Origin: Candidatus Rokuibacteriota bacterium
Lineage (GTDB): Bacteria; Methylomirabilota; Methylomirabilia; Rokubacteriales; CSP1-6
Assembly: GCA_003221695.1 (NCBI GenBank)
Contig: QHSX01000060.1
Coordinates: 1 to 64,000 of the forward strand
Direction: 5' to 3'
Length of the DNA stretch: 64,000 nucleotides
Below the pieces are notes generated by a model. It saw only the letters and a list, made by a program, of their open reading frames with translations, ran no database searches and was not told where the DNA came from. Position numbers and translations under genes: made by a program. Positions 27,663-37,441 of the stretch are shown here, piece after piece (the stretch's first letter is position 1; every line of letters begins with the position of its first letter).

Positions 27663-27763
27663 GTGATCGCGCGCGTGCTCTCGGCGGCACTCCTCGGAGT
27701 AGAGGCGGCGCTCGTGCGCGTCGAAGTAGACGTCACCGACGGGCTGCCAGCGTTCACGACGGT
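27663..27763 (+). pseudogene. comM: comM (Mg-chelatase-like ATPase), 5' fragment before element insertion
   Basis: GTG 27663 opens a frame reading [20 protein letters not shown] and then [15 protein letters not shown], the conserved N-terminus of ComM/YifB. It then runs into element sequence and stops at 27809. The continuation LPDSAVRESRERVR is found 9.7 kb away at 37441. Joining 27763 to 37437 restores the frame (GT + G = Val codon) and gives a protein of about 506 residues, the normal ComM length. ComM is a hexameric helicase that aids branch migration in natural transformation. Confidence 0.9.
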
Positions 27764-29265
27764 AGGCTCAATAACGATTGGTCCGTCTCCGTGGGGAGGA
27801 TGCCAGTGATCTTCAGCGACCGGTCGGCGCCCACGACGATCTCGTCGACGAGGTGCTGGAGGACCTTCTGGCGCCCGGCGGCGTCCAGGCGGTCGATCCC
27901 CCGCCGCGCCTTGGCCGCCCAGCGGTCGAGCGCGGCCAGGCGCCCGCCGTCGGCGTCGTGGGCGGCGACCTGAGCTTCTGCCCTTCCGAGGTCGCCCCGA
28001 AGACCCTCGCGCTCACGCGTCAGAGCGCGGAGGCGCGCGGCGACCTCGCCCTTGGCGATCCCGTCCTCGACGTAGAGGTCCAACAGCCTCTTCTCCTTCC
28101 CCTCGACGCCCCGGAGCTTGCGCGCGAGCGCCTCGACGCGCGCGCGGAGGTCGACGTCGTTGGCGCCGCGCTGGGCGGCCCACGCCTCGACGCCCGCCCG
28201 GAGGGTCGCCGGGTTTCGGAGCGCGTCGGCCACGGTCGTCCAGACCTCCGCCTCCGCGACGTTCGCCGAGATCATCGGCGCGCGGCACCCGGCCGTCAGG
28301 GCGAAGCGGTCGTGCCCGTGGCAGCGGTAGCACCGGCGCCCGTGCTGCGGGCAGCTCACGTACCTGGCGCCGCAGGCCCCGCAGCGGAGCAGGCCGCGGA
28401 GCATGTAGGTGAAGCGCGCGGGCCGCCCCACGTAGGCCGCCCGGTTTCGCGCGAGCACCGCCTTCGCGGCGGCGTGCGTCTCCTGCGTGACGATCGCGGG
28501 GATGGCGACCTCGATCCACTCCGTGGCCGGCCGCCGGCGCCGGCCGTGCGCGCCGATCGCGTCGCGGTTGTAGAACACGCGTCCGGTGTAGCGGTCTGAG
28601 CCGAGGATGCGGCGGACCTGCGTCGGCCCCCACCGACGCCCGGCGCGCGACGGGGGCACGCCGAGCCGCCGAAGCTCGTCGACGATCTTCCGCGTCGTCT
28701 TCCCTTCCTCGATCAGCCAGGCGTGGATCAACCTGACGACGCTCGCCTCCTCCTCGTGGACGACGAGCCGGCCGGGCGACGCCGGGTCGGGGCGGTAGCC
28801 GTAGGGGTAGCTCGCGACGACGAGGCCGCGCCGCGCCTTCTCTCGCTTGCCCCGCGTCGTCCGCTCGACGATCTTCAGGCGCTCGTACTCGGCGACGACC
28901 CCCTTGATGTTCAGCAGCAGGCCGCCCTCGGGCGTCGCCGCCCGCGTCGTCGTCAGGAACTCGACGCGCGACCTGGCCTCCAGCTCCTCGAGGAGCAGCA
29001 GCTGGTGCGCCAGCTTGCGGGAGAGCCGGTCGGGGTCGTGCGCCAGCACCACCTCGATCGCGCCCGCCCGCACGGCGTCGCGGAGCCGCGCGAGCGCCGG
29101 GCGATCGAGCGTGGCGCCGCTGTGCCCGTCGTCCAGGAACTCGTCCACGACGCGGTACCCCTTGGTGGCGGCGAGAGCGCGGAGCTCGTGCGCCTGTGCG
29201 GCGAGCCCGTACTTCTCGGCCTGCTCGTCGGTGCTGACTCGGGCGTAGACGGCGCAGGTGGTCAT
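27754..29265 (-). CDS. Large serine recombinase (integrase of the element)
   Basis: 503 residues. Resolvase domain with nucleophile S11 in [10 protein letters not shown] and the active-site Arg segment [10 protein letters not shown]; recombinase domain ([20 protein letters not shown] region to [12 protein letters not shown]); zinc ribbon with Cys at [18 protein letters not shown] and [10 protein letters not shown]; a coiled-coil region about 390-470; C-terminus [23 protein letters not shown] 29265 overlaps the upstream stop as ATGA. The 3' end crosses attL: the last two codons and the TGA at 27756-27754 are chromosomal comM sequence. It should catalyse attP x attB integration at comM. Confidence 0.93.
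27757..27768. other. attL junction of the integrated element
   Basis: CGACGGTAGGCT at the left comM/element junction matches CCACGGTGGGCT at the right junction (37430-37441) in 10 of 12 positions. The shared ACGGT (27759-27763) is the probable crossover core. The short imperfect core is typical of large serine recombinases. Confidence 0.75.
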
Positions 29266-29834
29266 GGGCGCTTCTCCTTGCGCTTGGGTTGGTAGCGCAG
29301 CCACGCCGCGGCCTGGGCGTGCCGGGCCGTGCAGTAGATCTGTCGTCGGGCGGCGAGGAAGATCGCCCCGCACGTGGTCCCGTTGGTCTTGAGCGGACAC
29401 GCGCGCAAGCGGTCCGCTTCGACGGCGTTGAGGTCGTTGACGAAGGCCACGACGATCGCCTCCGGCGTGACCGGGATCCCGCCAGGGCTGGTGTGGTCCG
29501 TCGTCATCGTGACGCGCCCCCCGCGACGGGCGCCCGGGCGACGTCGCCGGGCCGGCCAGATGGACCACGTGGTCTCGGGCATCCACACCACGTCGGGCAG
29601 CCCGTTCGCCAGGGCCTCGATCACCTGGCGGAGGGCCTGCTGGGCCTCGGGCACCTTGTCCCGCGCCGGGCGCGGCCCCTCAGCAGGCCGCCCCCGTTCC
29701 CAGGCGACGAGCATGGCCCACGCTCGGTGCCGGGCGCGTTCGGAGAGCTTGCTCAGGTCGAGCAGCCGGAACTTCAGCGCCCACTCGACCCGGGCCTCGG
29801 GCGTTCGCCCCAGGGCCCTCAGCGCTATAGCCAT
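29262..29834 (-). CDS. CGNR-zinc-finger-like protein of the element
   Basis: 190 residues. The C-terminal 50 residues (ADRLRACPLKTNGTTCGAIF followed by LAARRQIYCTARHAQAAAWL) resemble the CGNR zinc finger, with Cys/Cys/Cys/His ligands CPL, CGAIF, YCT, RHAQ. The N-terminal part is helical and unknown. CGNR proteins are thought to bind DNA. ATG 29834 has GGAG 7 bases upstream. It is co-transcribed with the recombinase (4-base overlap), so a role as recombination directionality factor or regulator of integration is plausible but unproven. Confidence 0.65.
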   Translation of the reverse strand: MAIALRALGRTPEARVEWALKFRLLDLSKLSERARHRAWAMLVAWERGRPAEGPRPARDKVPEAQQALRQVIEALANGLPDVVWMPETTWSIWPARRRRPGARRGGRVTMTTDHTSPGGIPVTPEAIVVAFVNDLNAVEADRLRACPLKTNGTTCGAIFLAARRQIYCTARHAQAAAWLRYQPKRKEKRP

Positions 29835-29910
29835 CGTCGTCTCCTCCGTCGATAGATATAGACCAAAGTATTTTACAAGTAAAGCGCAATGTTCTTACCT
29901 TATCTCCGAA
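29835..29910. promoter_or_regulatory. Divergent promoter/operator region of the element
   Basis: An AT-rich island between the recombinase operon (minus) and the regulator gene (plus). On the minus strand TTTACT, a 17-base spacer and TATATC form a plausible promoter for the CGNR-recombinase pair. The -35 overlaps TTTAC-AA-GTAAA (29872-29883), an inverted repeat that could be the operator for the ribbon-helix-helix protein encoded next door. Confidence 0.5.
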
Positions 29911-30099
29911 ATGGAGCGCAGAACAACGAAGCACGCGGCGCGGATGTGGAACGTCAGGCTCCATCGTCCCGATCGCGAGCTGCTCTTCCTGGCCGCGGAC
30001 CGCGAGGAGATCAGCCAGGCGGAGTTCGTGCGCCTGTCGATCCGCGAGCGGGCGCGCCGCGTGCTCCAGGGCGAAGACCGTGAACCCGAGCGCGCCTGA
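29911..30099 (+). CDS. Small ribbon-helix-helix-like DNA-binding protein
   Basis: 62 residues beginning MERRTTKHAARMWNVRLHRP. The strand followed by DREEISQAEFVRLSIRERAR matches the short beta-strand plus two-helix layout of Arc/DUF1778-type ribbon-helix-helix proteins. Divergent to the recombinase operon across a 76-base AT-rich gap, so probably the element's transcriptional regulator. An antitoxin-like origin is possible, but no toxin gene is adjacent. Confidence 0.6.
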   Translation: MERRTTKHAARMWNVRLHRPDRELLFLAADREEISQAEFVRLSIRERARRVLQGEDREPERA

Positions 30100-30220
30100 C
30101 CCCCGCACGCCCGCCGCGCGGTGGGCCGACGCGATCGCGCTCTTGCTGGCCGCCGCCGACCAGGATCAGGACCGGGATCTCCACCAGGACCTCGACGAGC
30201 AGAAGGACAACGCGCCGTGA
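30080..30220 (+). CDS. Small acidic hypothetical protein
   Basis: 46 residues from GTG 30080, overlapping the previous gene by 20 bases and the next by 4 (GTGA). The C-terminal half is Asp/Gln-rich (ADQDQDRDLHQDLDEQKDN). No family recognised. The chain of overlaps supports translation, but the start is uncertain. Confidence 0.45.
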   Translation: MNPSAPDPRTPAARWADAIALLLAAADQDQDRDLHQDLDEQKDNAP

Positions 30221-30351
30221 CCGCCGCGAAGCTCCGGCGCCTGACCGCCCGCGAAGCTCGCCGCGCCTTCGAGGCGGTGCTGGATCGCCCGTGGAATCGC
30301 CGCGCGTCGCTGTGGCTTGATGTGCTCGTCGTGATCGAGGAGGGGGCGTGA
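30217..30351 (+). CDS. Small hypothetical protein
   Basis: 44 residues from GTG 30217, overlapping the previous stop. Contains LRRLTAREARRAFEAVLDRP and ends VVIEEGA. Basic helical N-terminus, hydrophobic C-terminus. Function unknown; 7 bases before the prim-pol gene. Confidence 0.5.
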   Translation: MTAAKLRRLTAREARRAFEAVLDRPWNRRASLWLDVLVVIEEGA

Positions 30352-30358
30352 TCCGCGC

Positions 30359-30910
30359 ATGACGCCCGACGCCGAGCTGACCGTCGCCGCCGTGCGCGCC
30401 CGGGGCTGGGAGTGTGTGCGGCTGGCGCCGCGGGCGAAGAAGCCCGACGGGCCACGGTGGCAGATCACGAAGGACGCGGACCAGGTCGCCGAGTGGTTCG
30501 CCGCCGGCGCCAACGTTGGCCTCGTCTCTCACGAGCGCACCGGCGTCGCCGTGCTCGACCCCGACGAGCTGCTCGGCTGGGCCGACATGATCGACACGCT
30601 CGGGCAGCCCGCTCTCCCGTGGGTCATCACCGGCTCGGGCCGGCTGCACTACTACGTCCGGTGGCTCCCGGAGCTGCCGGCGAAGCTCACGTGGCGCGGC
30701 GAGCTCATCGGCGAGATCCAGCGCGGCCCGGGCCAGCAACAGGTCGTGCTCCCCGGCTCTGTCCATCCGAGCGGTGGCACGTACCGCTGGATCACGGAGC
30801 GCCTCGGCTTCCTCTGCGAGCCCATCGATCCCGTCAAGGGTCCGCTCCCGGAGCTGCCGGGTCTCTGGCGGGCCTATCTGTGCGGACAGAGCTATGCGCA
30901 CCGCCGCTGA
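30359..30910 (+). CDS. Bifunctional DNA primase/polymerase (prim-pol) domain protein
   Basis: 183 residues, a single prim-pol domain. Metal-site segment GVAVLDPDELLGW, the His motif ITGSGRLHYYVRW, and the C-terminal pattern EIQRGPGQQQVVLPGSVHPS followed by GGTYRW are characteristic. These domains make primers for phage and plasmid replication. In many relatives the domain is fused to a helicase; here the ATPase is a separate gene overlapping by 17 bases in another frame, so a split fusion or coupled pair is likely. Confidence 0.85.
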   Translation: MTPDAELTVAAVRARGWECVRLAPRAKKPDGPRWQITKDADQVAEWFAAGANVGLVSHERTGVAVLDPDELLGWADMIDTLGQPALPWVITGSGRLHYYVRWLPELPAKLTWRGELIGEIQRGPGQQQVVLPGSVHPSGGTYRWITERLGFLCEPIDPVKGPLPELPGLWRAYLCGQSYAHRR

Positions 30911-32096
30911 GGTCGAGCGTCTCCATGAGGCCGCGCTCCGCCAACCGGGCGCGACGCGGCGCGCCTTCGGCATCAAGTTCCAGTGCGCCGGCTGTGTGGA
31001 CGAGGGGCATGATCAGCACCGCGACAACGCCTGCGTGTTCGAGGACGGCACCTACGGGTGCGCCGTGAATCCGGCGCACCGGGAGGCGATCGGCCGCGCG
31101 CTCGGCGCGTTTCATCGGAACGGGTTCGGGCAGGCGCAGCCTGCGCCGGCCTCGACGGATGAGGGGCTCGGCCTCGTGCCGATCGGCGAGCTCCTCGGCG
31201 AATCGGACACCGGCCCAGCGTGGCTCGTGGACAAGCGGCTTCCGTCAGCGGGGCTTGGTCTGCTCGCGGCGAAGCCGAAAGGCGGGAAGTCGACGACCGC
31301 GCGCGTCCTGGCGCTCCGCGTCGCTCGGGGCGAGCCGTGGCTCGGCTTTGCCACGACGCGCGGCCCGGTGATCTACCTCGCGCTGGAAGAGAAGCGCTCC
31401 GAGGTGCGCGGGCATTTCAAGGCGCTCGGGGCGACGAGCGCCGAGCCGATCTTCATCCTCTGCGCGACGGCTCCGATCGACGCGCTCGCCCGGCTCCGCC
31501 GTGAGGCCGAACGCCGATGCCCGGCGCTGATCATCGTCGATACGTTGTTCAAGCTCATCCGCATCGACGACGGCAACGACTACGCGCTCGTGACCGCCGC
31601 CCTCGAGCCGCTCCTGACGCTCGCGCGCGAGACCGGGGCGCACGTGCTCGCGGTCCACCACCTCGGCAAGGGCGAGCGCGGGGACGGCGATGCCATCCTC
31701 GGCAGCACGGCGATCTTCGCCTCGGTCGACACGGTGCTCCTCCTCAAGCGTTCGGCCCGCTATCGGACCTTGTCGAGCATCCAGCGGTACGGCGACGACT
31801 TGGAGGAGATCACGCTCAGGCTGGATCCGGTGACGCGCGATGTCACGGCCGGCCCGCCGCGCGACGAGGCGGACCTGGCCGAAGCCTCGCGGCTGATCAT
31901 CGAAGCGCTGACGGCGGCCGCTGGGCCGATGACGGAGGCCGAGCTGGATGCTGCGGTCGAGTGCAGGACCGGCATCCGGAGGAAGGCGCTGCGCGGGCTC
32001 GTGGGAACAGAGATCGTTCGGACTGGGCGCGGAGGCAAGACGGACCCGTTCTTGTATTCATGTTCCCACCCTATACCTGGGAACACGGGAACATGA
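30894..32096 (+). CDS. RepA-like AAA ATPase/helicase of the element
   Basis: 400 residues from ATG 30894. An N-terminal Cys/His cluster (FQCAGCVDEGHDQHRDNAC) may bind zinc. The ATPase core has Walker A AAKPKGGKSTTARV, Walker B ALIIVDTLFKL and the sensor strand VLAVHHLGKG, as in RecA/RepA-type hexameric helicases (AAA_25 group). The C-terminus resembles a winged helix (MTEAELDAAVECRTGIRRKA). It probably unwinds the element's origin for the prim-pol protein. Repeats beginning inside its last codons form the putative origin. Confidence 0.85.
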   Translation: MRTAAEVERLHEAALRQPGATRRAFGIKFQCAGCVDEGHDQHRDNACVFEDGTYGCAVNPAHREAIGRALGAFHRNGFGQAQPAPASTDEGLGLVPIGELLGESDTGPAWLVDKRLPSAGLGLLAAKPKGGKSTTARVLALRVARGEPWLGFATTRGPVIYLALEEKRSEVRGHFKALGATSAEPIFILCATAPIDALARLRREAERRCPALIIVDTLFKLIRIDDGNDYALVTAALEPLLTLARETGAHVLAVHHLGKGERGDGDAILGSTAIFASVDTVLLLKRSARYRTLSSIQRYGDDLEEITLRLDPVTRDVTAGPPRDEADLAEASRLIIEALTAAAGPMTEAELDAAVECRTGIRRKALRGLVGTEIVRTGRGGKTDPFLYSCSHPIPGNTGT

Positions 32097-32190
32097 AGCC
32101 TGTTCCCGACCCTAAGTACGGAACCTATAAAGCAATGATTCTTGTTCCCATGTTCCGTATAGCGTTGTTGTTCCCAGAAGTCCCCGGAAC
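32062..32190. repeat. Cluster of GTTCC/GGAAC motifs (iteron-like origin region)
   Basis: Within about 130 bases there are GTTCC(C) at 32062, 32102, 32144, 32152 and 32170 and GGAAC at 32080, 32088, 32120 and 32186. Several form larger units: TGTTCCC-ACCCTATACCT-GGGAAC and TGTTCCCGACCCTAAGTACGGAAC are related, and CATGTTCCC pairs with GGGAACATG. Local AT content is raised. The cluster starts in the last codons of the RepA-like gene, the usual position for initiator-binding iterons. Confidence 0.65.
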
Positions 32191-32272
32191 CCCCAGAGAT
32201 CGCGCGAGCGCGAGGGCCGGCCGTGAGGAGCGGGAGGGGGGGGCAAATCTCAAACGAGGATTCACGTTTCAA

Positions 32273-32302
32273 GTCTGGTCGCTACGAGTCCAGACGCTTT
32301 TT
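32273..32302 (+). terminator. Intrinsic terminator after the replication genes
   Basis: GTCTGG (32273-32278) and CCAGAC (32290-32295) form a stem with an 11-base loop, followed by GCTTTTT. It would end the transcript running from the regulator through the RepA-like gene. Confidence 0.65.
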
Positions 32303-32346
32303 CGGGGGGGGAGGCACGTGCAAATCTCTACGGTTCTGGCGGGCAT

Positions 32347-32372
32347 AATCGCACGACAGTCGGAGTGCGATT
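32347..32372. repeat. Inverted repeat AATCGCAC-N10-GTGCGATT
   Basis: A perfect 8-bp stem with a 10-base loop, followed by TT. It may be a second terminator or a structural part of the origin region; the sequence alone does not decide. Confidence 0.6.
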
Positions 32373-32517
32373 TTCGCGGATTTTCCCAGCCCCCTATCTG
32401 TGTTATGGCCTCGATGCTGAGACTTGACTTGAGCAAGGTCGGGCCGGCGCGAAATTCCTACAGGCCCTTGGCGGGCGTTGCTGGCTCTGACCGCGGGGAC
32501 TTGGCGGGAGGTGGGCG

Positions 32518-32667
32518 CTGAAGTTCGATTTCTCCGATTTGCTGATCGTGGCGGGCGCCGCGCTCGTCGTCCTCGGCGTGGCGTGGCTGTCGCACTCGGC
32601 CGCCGCCATCGTCGCCGGGCTGTTGGTCGGCCTGATGGGCGTCGCGGTCGGGCGCAAGAAACCATGA
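32518..32667 (+). CDS. Small two-helix membrane protein (CTG start)
   Basis: 49 residues. The frame has no ATG/GTG at its beginning; CTG 32518 follows GGGAGG by 7 bases and gives MKFDFSDLLIVAGAALVVLG..., then a second hydrophobic stretch and GRKKP. Two membrane segments with a basic tail recall small phage holins or inner-membrane accessory proteins. Its stop overlaps the next ATG (ATGA). Confidence 0.5.
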   Translation: MKFDFSDLLIVAGAALVVLGVAWLSHSAAAIVAGLLVGLMGVAVGRKKP

Positions 32668-32777
32668 ACGAGGAGGACACCATGCCAGGGCAGCCAGCGG
32701 AAAAGCCACCGGCCACGAACCCGAAAACGCCGACGCCTCAGAGCCCGAAAACGGCCAGACCGGACCGCGGCCGATGA
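32664..32777 (+). CDS. Small Pro/Lys-rich hypothetical protein
   Basis: 37 residues, low complexity (KPPATNPKTPTPQSPKTARP). Overlaps both neighbours by 4 bases (ATGA at each end) in the chain of small genes from 32518 to 33591. The overlaps are the only evidence that it is translated. Function unknown. Confidence 0.45.
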   Translation: MNEEDTMPGQPAEKPPATNPKTPTPQSPKTARPDRGR

Positions 32778-33040
32778 AGCTGTTCGGCGAGCGGCGCGAG
32801 AGGGTGAAGATCCTTCGCCCCTTCGCGTCCGTCGACGTGACGGGCAACCTCGGCGACGTGCTCGAGGTGCCGGCGACGCGCGCGCGCGAGCTGATCGCCG
32901 CGGGCTGGGCGGAGGCCGCTCCGGACGCGCCGGTGGAGAACGCGCCGACGCCGTTCCGCGAAGTGGAATGCCGAGCGTGCTTCGGGCTGAACTCCGAGTA
33001 CGCGGGCCGATGCCAGCATTGCGGCGCGAGGCTCCTGTGA
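32774..33040 (+). CDS. Hypothetical protein with C-terminal zinc ribbon
   Basis: 88 residues. The first part (LRPFASVDVTGNLGDVLEVP ending in ARELIAAGWAE) looks like a small beta domain of the kind seen in phage neck or head-tail proteins. The C-terminus has CRACFGLNSEYAGRCQHCG, a CxxC-N10-CxxC zinc ribbon. ATG overlaps the previous stop; its own stop overlaps the next GTG. Confidence 0.6.
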   Translation: MKLFGERRERVKILRPFASVDVTGNLGDVLEVPATRARELIAAGWAEAAPDAPVENAPTPFREVECRACFGLNSEYAGRCQHCGARLL

Positions 33041-33591
33041 GCGACTGGACGCTCGTCGCGGAACCGATCAGGCCCCACGCGAGGCTCGAGGCGCTGGCCC
33101 GCCGCGTGTGGGACCGCGTGACGCACGGCCTGGCCTGGCCGTCGGGCTGGCGCGTCGTCTGGGGCGAGCTCCGCCCTGAGTGGTGGGGGCTCTGCGATTA
33201 CGGCGCCCGAACCATCATCGTTTCCGAGAAGACGGTCGCCCGCGAGGTCGGAAAGACGGTCGCCCACGAGGTCGCGCACGTCGCATCGCCGACCAGCGCC
33301 CACGGCGTCGCGTTCAAGGTCTTGGAGAAACGCGCGACCGACTCCCTGGAGGAGGACAGCATCATGATGGACCGAGACGAAATTGCGACGTTGCGCCGCG
33401 GCCCGAGCGGCTATCTCGCCGCGATGGAATCGCTGGAGGCGCATCGCCGCCGAGGCCGAGGCTCGCTCGACGCGGCGTGGGCGCGTCACCTGCGGGCCGG
33501 CATCGAGCTGGCCGCCGAGCTGGCCGGTCGTCCCGCGCTCGCGACGCTGCGGGCCCGGCTGGAGCGCGCGTGCGCCGATGATGCCGTTTGA
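33037..33591 (+). CDS. SprT-like/HExxH metallopeptidase-like protein
   Basis: 184 residues from GTG 33037 (GTGA overlap). The zinc-protease motif is VAHEVAHVASP; upstream TIIVSEKTV fits the SprT/WSS1-like fold in which a strand precedes the HExxH helix. The C-terminal 70 residues are helical and charged. Phages carry such proteins with unclear roles. The third metal ligand cannot be assigned with confidence. Confidence 0.65.
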   Translation: MSDWTLVAEPIRPHARLEALARRVWDRVTHGLAWPSGWRVVWGELRPEWWGLCDYGARTIIVSEKTVAREVGKTVAHEVAHVASPTSAHGVAFKVLEKRATDSLEEDSIMMDRDEIATLRRGPSGYLAAMESLEAHRRRGRGSLDAAWARHLRAGIELAAELAGRPALATLRARLERACADDAV

Positions 33592-33731
33592 GGAACGTCC
33601 CCGGCGCGGCGGGCGCCGTGACCTGCGATGCGGAGTGTCAGCGGCTGGGACGCGCGCTGGCCGGGGGGACTCGACCCTCGTTAGAGTGCTCTCGCGCGTG
33701 GGGCCCGCCACTTTCACGAAGGAGGAGTGAC

Positions 33732-34046
33732 ATGCGGCAGACGATCGTGGTTCCGGGCGTCGCGGGGCAGCCCCTGACAGGCAGGCTCGACGACTACGGC
33801 GCCGGCCAGGTGCTGTTCGACGCCTCGGCCAAGGTCAAAGCCTTCAAGGGGGCCGTGGTGGCGGTGAGGACGGAGGTGCCCGGCACCGTGAAGGAGTGCG
33901 AGGATTGGCAGGCGCGGCTGCGCCTGGACCACCCGTCGCGCGTCGTCGAATCCGCGAGGGGGTTGCAGGCGGACTTGATAGGCCTCCGTGACGAGGTGAA
34001 AGCCTTGCTCGACATGGTCGACGGACTCGTCAGGCGGAGCCGGTAG
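33732..34046 (+). CDS. Hypothetical phage protein
   Basis: 104 residues, start ATG 33732 with GGAGGAG 4 bases upstream. N-terminus MRQTIVVPGVAGQPLTGRLD is beta-rich; the C-terminal 40 residues form a helix (ESARGLQADLIGLRDEVKAL). It directly precedes the tape-measure gene, the place usually held by tail tube or tape-measure chaperone genes, but I cannot assign either. Confidence 0.6.
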   Translation: MRQTIVVPGVAGQPLTGRLDDYGAGQVLFDASAKVKAFKGAVVAVRTEVPGTVKECEDWQARLRLDHPSRVVESARGLQADLIGLRDEVKALLDMVDGLVRRSR

Positions 34047-35849
34047 TTGGCAACCCTCGGCGCGCTCATCGTCGAGCTGCGGGCAAACTCGCTCCAATTT
34101 CGGACGGAGCTGGAGGGCGCCAGACGCAGCCTCGGGGACGTGAGCCGCGCGCACACGGCGGCCGGCGGCGCCTTCCAGGGGACGGGCCGCCAGATCAACG
34201 AGGCGACGCGCCTGGTCCGCGTCTTCGCCGGCTCGATCCTGACGGAAATCAACCCAGCCCTGGGCCAGATGACCTCGGCGATGTCGGGGGCGGGGCGCGT
34301 CGCGGCCGGGCTGAATCCTGTCCTCGGCGTCGGCGTCGTCGTCCTGACGACCGCGGCCGCGACCCTCGCCCAATATGGGCGGACGCTCAATCAGGCGAGC
34401 GCGCGGCAAGCGGACTTCAATCTGGCGGTCCGTGCGCTCGACTTCGGGAGCATCGTGGCCCAGGTCGATGCCGCCTCGAAAGAGCTGGAACGCTTCAATG
34501 CCTCGCTTGGCGGGAAGTTCCTCGATGTCCTCCGGCAGATCGGCGCGGCTCCTGGCACGACCGGGGCGCCCAATCTTTTTGACCGACTCTTCGGCAAGAC
34601 GCCGTTGGAGGAGTTTCTCAAATCGTCCCGCGAATCCTCGGCGGCGGCCGCGTGGCCACAGATCCAGAAGGCGACGACGGAGGAGTATCTCAAGCAACTC
34701 TCGGCCGCGGAGCAGCTCCGGCACGTCGAGGCCGAGCGCGCCGAATCCCGCGGGGACTTCGTGGCGTGGCTCGATGTGCAGCGCAAGATCACCGATGATC
34801 TCTCCCGCCAGTTCACGGCCGAGCAGGTCCTCGTCGACCTCGAAGCTCGTCTGGCGACGCTGCGGGCGACGGCCCGACTCGGGGGGGCCCTGCCGGGCGA
34901 GCTGGAGCTGATCGAAGCGAGGCAAAAGCAGCAGACCGAGACGCTCGGGGCGCGCTTCCTCGCGGGCTTCGGTGCCATTGATCGCACGGTGGAGCAGGGC
35001 CGCCTGCGGGAGCTGATCGAGGCGCGAACGGTCGACCGCGACCGGCTCACCCTCCTGCGCGACACAGTTGGTCTGAGCGAGGCCGAGCTTGCGGCGCGCA
35101 GCCGCGAGGTCATCGAAGCGTCGAGACTCCTCGAGATTGCCCAGGCCAACGGCGACGCGCGGAAGGAGGATCTCGCCAATCCCCGCGCCGCACTGGCGAC
35201 CTCGGCCCTCGTCCGTCAGGAGCTGGAGCAGGGCCCGGTGGGAGCCGTCTTCGCCGGCGTCACGCGGAATGCCGCCTCGGCCCTCGAAGGGCTCCTCGAC
35301 CAGACGACGACGGTCGAGCAGGCGTTCCGGAGCATGACGATCTCGATCCGCAACTCGATCCTTGAGAACGTGGTCGACAAGGGCATCCGGGCGGCGCACG
35401 ACGCCTTGTTCAAGTGGCTCGCCGACCTCGCGGAGGCCGGGCTGCTCAGGGGGGTGCTCGGCGCGGTGCTGGGCGCGGGGTTCGGCGCCGGCGCTCCGAC
35501 GTCAGGCGTGGGCCCCGGCGTGGCCGGCCCGATCGGCCCGCCGACCCAGCACGGCGGGGTGTTCACGGCGCCGCAGTTCCGCCTGCTCGGCGAGGCCGGC
35601 CCTGAGGCGGTGATCCCCTTGCGCGGCGGCGCCGTCCCGGTCCGGATGCTGGGCGCGGGCGCGCCGGGCGTGATCGTCAACATCTTCCCGCCGAGCGGGA
35701 CGACCGTCGAGCAGCGGGACTCGGTCGGGCCCGGCGGCGAGGTCGTGAAGAACATCATCATGCGCACGATCCGCCAGGCGTCGCAGACCGGCGAGCTGGA
35801 CTCCGTCATGGGGACCTACGGCCTCCGCCGGCCGGGCCTGGCGAGGTAG
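34047..35849 (+). CDS. Phage tail tape-measure protein
   Basis: 600 residues from TTG 34047, immediately after the previous stop. Long helical N-terminus, hydrophobic stretch about 95-125 (VLGVGVVVLTTAAATLA), helical middle, Gly/Ala hydrophobic segment about 460-485, and the family C-terminal signature HGGVFTAPQFRLLGEAGPEA followed by VIPL. Tape-measure proteins set tail length and help DNA entry. At 600 residues it would specify a fairly short tail. It is the clearest structural phage gene in the element. Confidence 0.85.
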   Translation: MATLGALIVELRANSLQFRTELEGARRSLGDVSRAHTAAGGAFQGTGRQINEATRLVRVFAGSILTEINPALGQMTSAMSGAGRVAAGLNPVLGVGVVVLTTAAATLAQYGRTLNQASARQADFNLAVRALDFGSIVAQVDAASKELERFNASLGGKFLDVLRQIGAAPGTTGAPNLFDRLFGKTPLEEFLKSSRESSAAAAWPQIQKATTEEYLKQLSAAEQLRHVEAERAESRGDFVAWLDVQRKITDDLSRQFTAEQVLVDLEARLATLRATARLGGALPGELELIEARQKQQTETLGARFLAGFGAIDRTVEQGRLRELIEARTVDRDRLTLLRDTVGLSEAELAARSREVIEASRLLEIAQANGDARKEDLANPRAALATSALVRQELEQGPVGAVFAGVTRNAASALEGLLDQTTTVEQAFRSMTISIRNSILENVVDKGIRAAHDALFKWLADLAEAGLLRGVLGAVLGAGFGAGAPTSGVGPGVAGPIGPPTQHGGVFTAPQFRLLGEAGPEAVIPLRGGAVPVRMLGAGAPGVIVNIFPPSGTTVEQRDSVGPGGEVVKNIIMRTIRQASQTGELDSVMGTYGLRRPGLAR

Positions 35850-35852
35850 CCG

Positions 35853-36104
35853 ATGAGCGCGATGGACGGGACGCCGGCGATCTACGACCTTGGCGAGTTC
35901 GCGCTGCCATCAGGCACGTCCGTCAGCCTGTCCGCGCGGGTGCTCATCGACGTCACGGTCGTTCCGGAGCCTCCCCTCGACGAGCGCGGCTTCTACATCG
36001 AGACCATCGTGCCCCAGGCCATGGCGCGCCTCCGGGAGCGCCTGGGCCGCCTCCGGTACCGGGTCGGCGAGTGGCAGTCGATCGACCCCACGGAGGCCCC
36101 ATGA
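35853..36104 (+). CDS. Small hypothetical tail-region protein
   Basis: 83 residues, ATG 35853, 3 bases after the tape-measure stop and overlapping the next gene (ATGA). Beta-rich middle (SVSLSARVLIDVTVVPEPPL) and helical C-terminus. Position suggests a minor tail component; no family recognised. Confidence 0.6.
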   Translation: MSAMDGTPAIYDLGEFALPSGTSVSLSARVLIDVTVVPEPPLDERGFYIETIVPQAMARLRERLGRLRYRVGEWQSIDPTEAP

Positions 36105-36661
36105 GCGAGACCATCCACGTCACCGCCCTCGCGAAGCCGCTCTCGTTCGAGCGCCGGCTCGCCGAGTTCGACCCTGGCGTGACCATCGCCGACCTGATCA
36201 GGTTGGTCGGCGCGCCGCCCTGGAGCCGCGTCTACATCGAGGGCGAGCTCATCTACCCCGAGTACTACCACGTCGTGCGCCCGAAGCGTGGCGCTCACGT
36301 CGTGATCCGCGCGGTCCCGCGCGGCGGCGGCGGGCGCGGCGGCGACAAGAACGTCGGGATGATCGTGCTCGGCATCCTGCTCATCGTCGTCGGGATCGCC
36401 CTGGCGGGCTTTCCGGCGACCGCGCCGGCCGCGCCCTACGTGATCGGCCTCGGCGTCTCGTTGGTCCTGGGCGGCGTCATCAACCTGCTGATCCCGCCGC
36501 CGGTGCCGCCGCGGCTCCGGCCGTTGTCCGGTTTGAGCGGCCAGGACGCGGAGAGCCCGACGCTCTCGATCACCGGGCAGAAGAACTCGGTGCGCCCGTA
36601 CGGCGTGGTCCCGAGGATCCTGGGCCGGCACAAGCTCTTCCCGCCCGTGGCGCCCGCGTGA
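36101..36661 (+). CDS. Tail-tip protein J-like N-terminal domain, ends early
   Basis: 186 residues. MSETIHVTALAKPLSFERRL begins a small beta domain; then a hydrophobic region (VGMIVLGILLIVVGIALAGF and LGVSLVLGGVINLLIPPPVP); then SVRPYGVVPRILGRHKLFPP, the motif in lambda J-type proteins just before the main baseplate domains. J proteins normally exceed 1000 residues. Here the frame ends right after this motif, so either the gene is truncated or this is a separate tail-assembly protein of the lambda I/K region. The stop overlaps the next GTG. Confidence 0.65.
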   Translation: MSETIHVTALAKPLSFERRLAEFDPGVTIADLIRLVGAPPWSRVYIEGELIYPEYYHVVRPKRGAHVVIRAVPRGGGGRGGDKNVGMIVLGILLIVVGIALAGFPATAPAAPYVIGLGVSLVLGGVINLLIPPPVPPRLRPLSGLSGQDAESPTLSITGQKNSVRPYGVVPRILGRHKLFPPVAPA

Positions 36662-37248
36662 CCACGAGCGCTCCGCGCGTCGTGCTGCTCCGCCACGAGG
36701 GCGAGGTCTACACGCCGGTCATGGCGGGCGCGCGCGTGCTGGAGTTGGCCGAGCTGGCCGCGCTCGCGGCCGCGCCGGGCGATCGTCCGGACGTCGCGCG
36801 GTGGTTCTGCTGCGTCCTGCTCGACGAGATGGAGCTTGAGGGCGGCTGGCGGCACGACCTGGCGAGCCTGGCGACGTCGCGATGCCGCGTCACTCGCCTT
36901 CCGCTCGTCCTGGGCGACTCGGGCCTCCGCATCGGGGACGTGGAGACCATCGTGCGCCATCCCCCCGAGGCCGTCCCCGGCGTCGTGGGGAGCTGCCTGG
37001 TCGCGACGGGCCGGTTCGGCACCACGAAGCTCGCCGAGATCGCCTGGACGGCGGTGCAGGCCGGCATCCTGCGCGGTGTCTGCATCGAGCTGGACGCCGA
37101 GGAGACCGAGCCGGGGCTGCGGGCGCTGAGCACGCTTCGGGCCGTCCGCCTGGGGGACCTCGAGTCCGGCCACGTGCCCGGCGCGCGCGTCCTGGCGAGC
37201 TGGGAGGAGCCAGCCTTCGCCGAGGGCCGCGTGGCTAGGGGCGCCTAG
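36658..37248 (+). CDS. Hypothetical protein at the right end of the element
   Basis: 196 residues from GTG 36658 (GTGA overlap). Starts TTSAPRVVLLRHEGEVYTP and has a central FGTTKLAEIAWTAVQAGILR and GVCIELDAEE. The alpha/beta pattern faintly recalls HK97 prohead-protease-like domains, but the active-site His/Ser cannot be placed, so I leave it unassigned. Last gene of the element; 37249-37436 beyond it holds only a CCCGGAG-N10-CTCCGGG hairpin (37299-37322) and the att site. Confidence 0.6.
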   Translation: MTTSAPRVVLLRHEGEVYTPVMAGARVLELAELAALAAAPGDRPDVARWFCCVLLDEMELEGGWRHDLASLATSRCRVTRLPLVLGDSGLRIGDVETIVRHPPEAVPGVVGSCLVATGRFGTTKLAEIAWTAVQAGILRGVCIELDAEETEPGLRALSTLRAVRLGDLESGHVPGARVLASWEEPAFAEGRVARGA

Positions 37249-37298
37249 CAGGCGCTAGGACCCGTGATCCGCAGGGGGGGCGCTATGCCAGTATCCCC

Positions 37299-37322
37299 CC
37301 CGGAGGGCCTTTTCGCTCCGGG
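37299..37322. terminator. Hairpin at the element's right end
   Basis: CCCGGAG and CTCCGGG enclose a 10-base loop containing TTTT. There is no T-tract after it. It lies 51 bases past the last element gene and may end the tail transcript. Confidence 0.4.
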
Positions 37323-37429
37323 CCGGCGGGGTCGCGGAATTGGGTGTCCCCACTCGGGGGCCATCTTCACGCGACCGCCGACGCCGTCAGGACGTAGCGG
37401 GGCCCTTTCGAGAATTGGGCCCGCGGCCA

Positions 37430-37441
37430 CCACGGTGGGCT
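37430..37441. other. attR junction of the integrated element
   Basis: CCACGGTGGGCT, matching the left junction in 10 of 12 positions; ACGGT at 37432-37436 is the likely crossover core. To its right the comM reading frame resumes with GLPDSAVRES. Confidence 0.75.

Follow-up and report, generated by a model that had tools for sequence, protein, structure and literature searches.

A putative iteron origin at the 3' end of a RepA-like helicase gene in an integrated, phage-derived element of Candidatus Rokuibacteriota

Short repeats crowded into the end of a replication gene raise the question of which protein reads them and what follows from the reading. The 64,000-base stretch of DNA analysed here (the window) carries such a cluster where the gene of a RepA-like helicase ends, and an earlier note on the sequence had suggested a replication origin after repA. 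The density of the repeats, their position at the gene end and their recurrence in relatives all speak for that suggestion, and we infer that the cluster is probably the iteron replication origin of an integrated, phage-derived element of 9.7 kb, read by the winged helix of the element's own helicase.

The repeat cluster and the element that carries it

The cluster holds nine copies of GTTCC or GGAAC within 130 bases, exactly as the earlier note had counted, with starts at 32062, 32080, 32088, 32102, 32120, 32144, 32152, 32170 and 32186. The two words occur 147 times in the window; the 138 copies outside the cluster give an expectation of 0.27 for 32062-32190, and the chance of at least nine copies there is P ~2e-11, or ~1e-6 when corrected for 64000 starts. 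Counted across the whole window, comparable density is found nowhere else, the runner-up 150-base stretch holding four copies. The longer word TGTTCCC/GGGAACA occurs 15 times in the window, six times inside the cluster, and the only two TGTTCCC pairs within about 20 bases of each other both lie at the cluster, against none in 100 shuffles. No second copy of the cluster was found elsewhere in its own 4.6-Mb genome.

The larger repeated units that had been described are present as perfect inverted arms of 11 bp (32057-32067/32087-32097) and as inverted arms of 18 nt with an 89% match (32080-32097/32139-32156). The cluster does begin within the final codons of the helicase gene (the ATPase gene of the earlier note): its first three copies precede the stop at 32094-32096, and both the cluster and its gene-end position are established here. 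The AT-richer patch in GC-rich surroundings is equally real, with a minimum of 46% GC per 100 bases at the cluster against 71% for the element, the second rank for AT-richness in the element. The 36 bases between the two iteron sets (Table 1) are flanked by four and three TGTTCC copies and contain one GGAAC. As single-stranded DNA the cluster region folds better than its shuffles (z -4.5), forming several hairpins rather than one.

The cluster belongs to an integrated element (27764-37436, 9673 bases) that splits a gene we take to be comM, a competence-related ATPase gene. Joining the two halves of this gene at ACGGT restores a continuous protein that matches the unbroken comM of a genome of the same genus (G003). 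The integrase stop codon sits in comM sequence, past the left junction core (27754-27768), and integration therefore alters the tail of the enzyme; once the element is circular, the reading frame would continue beyond SLP and give a C-terminus about 20 residues longer. The most AT-rich 100 bases of the element (29826-29925, 42% GC) lie where the integrase-side genes and the replication genes diverge and are likely a control region, and the small plus-strand ORF right after them appears ribbon-helix-helix-like as judged by eye only. A search of plasmids gave no match at E 1e-8. The detrended cumulative GC skew of the element has its minimum at 31785, near the cluster, but the skew is confounded by gene orientation and is only weakly consistent with an origin there.

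Downstream of the cluster, the expected 8-bp inverted repeat is exact. Of the terminator that the earlier note placed before it, the hairpin and its five T are present, but a terminator consensus scan of 29600-33000 found none and the RNA fold of the hairpin is no better than that of shuffles (z +1.06). G-rich direct repeats at 32227-32251 and 32304-32328, both ending in GCAAATCTC, lie on either side of this possible terminator. Two matches to known RNA families fell below the family thresholds and were treated as noise.

Table 1. Features of the element and of the repeat cluster, in window coordinates
Feature	Position	Strand	Basis
Large serine recombinase (integrase)	27754..29265	-	Pfam Resolvase, Recombinase, Zn_ribbon_recom; PHROG 95 integrase E 1.8e-101
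Left junction core ACGGT; comM 5' part on its left	27759..27763	.	comparison with G003
Prim-Pol primase, separate gene, 17-base overlap with helicase gene	30359..30910	+	PF09250 E 2.8e-20
RepA-like helicase (AAA_25) with C-terminal winged helix; 3' end within cluster	30894..32096	+	PF13481 E 1.8e-31
Winged-helix domain, candidate iteron reader	31860..32063 (model residues 230-297)	+	AlphaFold2 H-H-H-E-E, pLDDT blocks 89-94
Recognition helix of winged helix, predicted	31968-32000	+	
Outlying tenth copy GGGAACA, within helicase gene	32003..32009	-	relatives' matrix rank 12
First iteron set, including inverted pair GTTCCC...GGGAAC around CTATAC	32060..32107	.	same pair in L025, L028, L032, L035
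Iteron cluster, 9 GTTCC/GGAAC (6 TGTTCCC)	32062..32190	.	motif count; relatives' matrix ranks 1, 2, 4, 5, 13, 25
AT-richer stretch between two iteron sets, 39% GC; candidate melting site (putative function)	32108..32143	.	
Second iteron set, TTGTTCCCATGTTCC and TTGTTCCCA	32144..32175	+	window's top matrix match at 32144
Hairpin (6 bp) + T5, possible terminator, weak	32273..32302	+	by sequence; consensus scan and fold score negative
8-bp inverted repeat AATCGCAC/GTGCGATT	32347..32372 (arms 32347-32354/32365-32372)	.	exact match; RNA fold z -1.76
ORF, weak SprT-like metalloprotease match	32968-33591		E 0.0029, under Pfam's cut-off
Tail tape-measure-like gene	34047..35849	+	PHROG 339 E 3.3e-9
Tail-assembly-like gene	36071..36661	+	PHROG 32 E 4.1e-12
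Right junction core ACGGT; remaining comM runs to 38856	37432..37436	.	comparison with G003

A helicase fused to a predicted winged helix

The name repA is apt, since profile and predicted fold both point to the hexameric RepA helicase of RSF1010: the helicase core finds its best profile match there (1g8y, E 1.6e-11), as does the predicted fold in its top Foldseek match (1olo, E 1.3e-12, TMt 0.71). The AlphaFold2 model covers 298 residues of the helicase and was built from an 11-row alignment (mean pLDDT 87). The last 70 residues of the modelled part are predicted to fold as helix-helix-helix-strand-strand, a winged helix with a weak profile match to AdcR, of MarR type (E 0.0014). No separate RepC initiator gene was found among the element ORFs scanned, and the model establishes a helicase with the winged helix fused to it as the predicted architecture.

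Recurrence of the gene-end array in relatives

Relatives were found via the helicase only, and the repeat motif was never part of the search. They occur in 15 of 148 related genomes, and in 13 of 95 within the phylum. The alignment query returned 11 loci in genome_contigs, among them L028, L032, L033, L034 and L035, already found by the genome search, and no locus in viral_contigs; peptide patterns from the window protein alone retrieved no close relative from viral_contigs or genome_contigs. GTTCC copies stand where the winged helix ends in seven loci of six genomes (L025, L026, L027, L028, L032, and L033 and L035 of a single genome), and the carriers of gene-end GTTCCC belong to Methylomirabilota/Rokubacteria, Myxococcota, Pseudomonadota and one unclassified MAG. 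The motif thus recurs at the end of the same helicase gene in sister elements, on whose conservation the earlier note had made its proposal depend.

A position matrix built solely from the gene ends of the relatives (27 copies, seven loci) has the consensus TTTCTnGTTCCC, with C three bases before G in 27/27 copies, T beside G in 23/27 and the third C in 25/27. Run over the whole window, this matrix places four of its five top matches in the cluster and seven of its top 25 in 32000-32200 (ranks 1, 2, 4, 5, 12, 13 and 25); the place of the array and its word are both conserved in the relatives. The arrays of L025, L028, L032 and L035 hold GTTCC and GGAAC 12-13 bases apart, and in three of the four the pair surrounds TATA-like bases, as it does in the window. 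Motif copies occur in all three reading frames, and an Armatimonadota locus (L034) carries a TTCCTATATATAGGAA palindrome past the stop of its helicase gene; the conserved thing is therefore a DNA motif and not a peptide, and conservation of the repeats at the protein level was rejected.

A k-mer shuffle test run per locus was clear for the window, L025, L030 and L031, partly positive for L026, L027, L028, L032 and L047, and not clear for L029, L033, L034, L035, L044, L046 and L048-L051. Two rokubacterial helicase relatives (L009 and L010, from G013 and G019) show, by eye, repeats of GATTC/GGAATC type near the gene end, which are not significant in the 37-locus scan described below (as L044 and L046). 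One MAG (G024) holds several helicase gene copies that are ~95% identical (L079 and L080, on contigs C107 and C99). The ends of C107 match only at ~95% and therefore represent divergent copies; a circular contig was rejected.

The primase upstream of the helicase varies among the relatives: it is a Prim-Pol in L026, NrS-1-type in L027 and L032, Toprim-like in L025, L030 and L031, CHC2/Toprim in L034, PriCT-1 in the cut locus L029 and unrecognised in L028. The integrases near the helicase gene in L081 (G084), L082 (G073) and L026 are of tyrosine type. Helicase, wing and array are retained while the types of primase and integrase change, and the primase is interchangeable between elements. Because the same word stands beside Prim-Pol, NrS-1-type and Toprim-like primases, GTTCCC follows the helicase with its wing and not the primase.

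Other relatives bear other words. CTCCACC stands nine times at the corresponding gene end of two Thermomicrobia loci (L030 and L031), and the gene-end words of a wider set, from helicase searches with matches in 3/339, 16/291 and 0/167 genomes, include CGAACAA, CGTCGGCA, CGAATACC, GTAATCA, CAGAACC, CGATTGAC and others. Helicase-core identity to the window is 53-68% for the GTTCC relatives and 55-56% for the CTCCACC pair. The predicted recognition helix ends in ALR in the GTTCC relatives, while the CTCCACC pair has ARAIR, a contrast that tracks the repeat word and is suggestive only, the CTCCACC loci being two related ones and the helicase-core tree giving no resolution.

The strongest short-repeat cluster of any word was located in each of 37 loci, with a target zone from -50 to +300 bases relative to the end of the wing. 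It falls at the 3' end of the helicase gene in 21 loci against 3.4 expected, with a binomial value of 4e-13 that overstates the certainty, since the loci are related to one another and some had served as seeds for the profile. With the near-duplicates L031, L035 and L060 removed, the proportion is 20/34, and four control zones yielded 2/35, 1/37, 2/34 and 3/36, each against 3.0-3.3 expected. The strongest cluster lies elsewhere than the gene end in 16/37 loci; little or nothing was seen at the gene end of L029, L033, L035, L044, L046, L058, L065, L067 and L068. The set takes in 12/13 genomes of one search, 3/3 (of 339) and 16/16 (of 291), G098 being L034. It leaves out the weak matches of the 148-genome search (L011-L017, L019, L022), duplicates or pieces (L001, L003-L007, L009, L010, L018, L020, L021, L023, L024, L039-L043, L052-L054, L057), L008/L045 (G036, contig edge) and the comM loci L036-L038. 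L002, a weak match in the window's own genome, was kept, and L002, L050 and L055 reach only partially into the model.

Six phage records yielded one clear array, in Salicola phage CGphi29, and a weak one in Cozz, the other four having none there. In CGphi29 (L074), a sequenced phage with a known host, the ATGTCCC array lies right past the stop of a RepA-type gene and is a candidate origin.

Proposed origin function, its alternatives and a possible family-wide reading

The sequence of events at such an origin can be outlined as follows. The serine integrase would excise the element, and copies of the RepA-like helicase would bind the TGTTCCC iterons via their own C-terminal winged helix. Assembled on both sets of iterons, the helicase would melt the AT-richer stretch that separates or adjoins them; the bound protein would load as a hexameric helicase, and the adjoining Prim-Pol would synthesise the first primers.

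MarR-type wings are usually regulators, and the resemblance of this wing to the MarR-type repressor AdcR admits the repeats as operators, by which the wing or another regulator of the element would control the replication operon or downstream genes, with no start of replication. The cluster would be suitably placed, lying between a replication gene and a possible terminator and upstream of the next genes. Such a role is nonetheless unlikely: a sigma-70 consensus scan of 29600-33000 found no promoter-like site, the cluster sits at the 3' end of its own operon and not ahead of the operon's promoter, and the array keeps its gene-end position in relatives whose neighbouring genes differ.

Plasmid iterons are often used for copy control, and the repeats might likewise be partition or copy-number (incompatibility) repeats, or else the remnant origin of a dead prophage. 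No capsid or terminase gene was matched among the element ORFs scanned; tail genes in such company suggest decay, and the element may be defective. No ParA/ParB-like gene was found among the same ORFs, however, and the integrase, prim-pol, helicase and junction cores are all uninterrupted, which leaves either role very unlikely. It is likewise very unlikely that the repeats are template start sites for the primase and not binding sites of the winged helix. The NrS-1 polymerase, a PrimPol, recognises a defined template motif, TTTGGTTA (excerpts of PMC8718748), and the SCCmec CCPol-MP primes preferentially at origin repeats (excerpts of PMC7581432), but the GTTCCC word occurs with Prim-Pol, NrS-1-type and Toprim-like primases alike.

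For an origin recognised by the wing, the best reading by analogy is a mode of action like that of two known systems, the Rep-ori module of PICI/SaPI islands and the origin of SCCmec Cch2. According to excerpts of the published accounts, the PICI origin lies immediately 3' of the initiator gene, with an AT-rich region enclosed by two sets of iterons (PMC6092414), and SaPI Rep recognises iterons right downstream of its own gene (PMC7581432). Islands and window element share the order of primase, initiator and iterons; the island iterons flank an AT-rich stretch (PMC6092414, PMC7581432), and the stretch between the two sets of the window has a GGAAC within it. Here the cluster overlaps the helicase stop itself. 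The window element differs from PICI/SaPI in its RSF1010-RepA-like helicase with a MarR-like wing, in its serine integrase and insertion in comM, and in an array that begins inside the coding end. PICI/SaPI satellites rely on the virion of a helper and are not known to have tail genes of their own, whereas the window element has tape-measure- and tail-assembly-like genes.

SCCmec Cch2 likewise binds repeats just downstream of its own helicase gene, and both helicase binding and preferred priming are reported for it (excerpts of PMC7581432). Its helicase and primase are of other kinds, and its repeats are three short direct ones against nine or ten in both orientations in the window element. 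The plasmid pRN1 (ORF904) combines primase, helicase and C-terminal wing and requires a stem-loop directly downstream of their gene (excerpts of PMC4234260). The inverted repeats of the window can also fold, yet as several hairpins; pRN1 has a long stem-loop and no iterons, and its Prim-Pol, winged helix and helicase, of the SF3 kind, form one protein, whereas in the window element the Prim-Pol and a RepA-like helicase are encoded by separate ORFs. RSF1010/IncQ shares the hexameric RepA-type helicase fold but has a separate RepC where the window element has its DNA-binding domain fused to the helicase. IncQ iterons are direct repeats of ~20 bp, whereas the window copies are short and in both orientations. 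Salicola phage CGphi29 carries ATGTCCC/GGGGACAT repeats immediately after the stop of its RepA-type gene; it differs in its repeat word and in being a whole phage, and no published origin data were found for it. Elsewhere, the RepA of PLE binds origin iterons (excerpts of PMC7145576), and winged helices for which a part in origin recognition has been proposed are found on primases of integrated elements (excerpts of PMC5862659).

A search of the open-licence literature found no description of origins of this helicase family. The mechanism is of a known kind, and what is found here is a variant of it by helicase type, by the start of the array in the coding end, by swapped primases and by private words. 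More novel, and worth following, is the family-wide rule of a common layout with private words. There is an even chance that it reflects a replicon cassette spanning phyla, of which the same literature search found no description either and in which an RSF1010-RepA-like helicase with a MarR-like wing would carry its own origin at the 3' end of its gene as a private iteron word. Helicase, wing and array would travel as one unit, primases (Prim-Pol, NrS-1-type, Toprim) and integrases (serine, tyrosine) would be exchanged, and the wing would have co-evolved with its word in each lineage.

If this is true, origin recognition in these elements would belong to the helicase and not to the primase, and the origins of many uncultured integrated elements could be read from the end of one gene. 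The set of private words would supply naturally matched wings and DNA sites, so that a recognition code might be derived from them, and the elements would offer small self-contained replicons for bacteria short of plasmid tools, such as Methylomirabilota.
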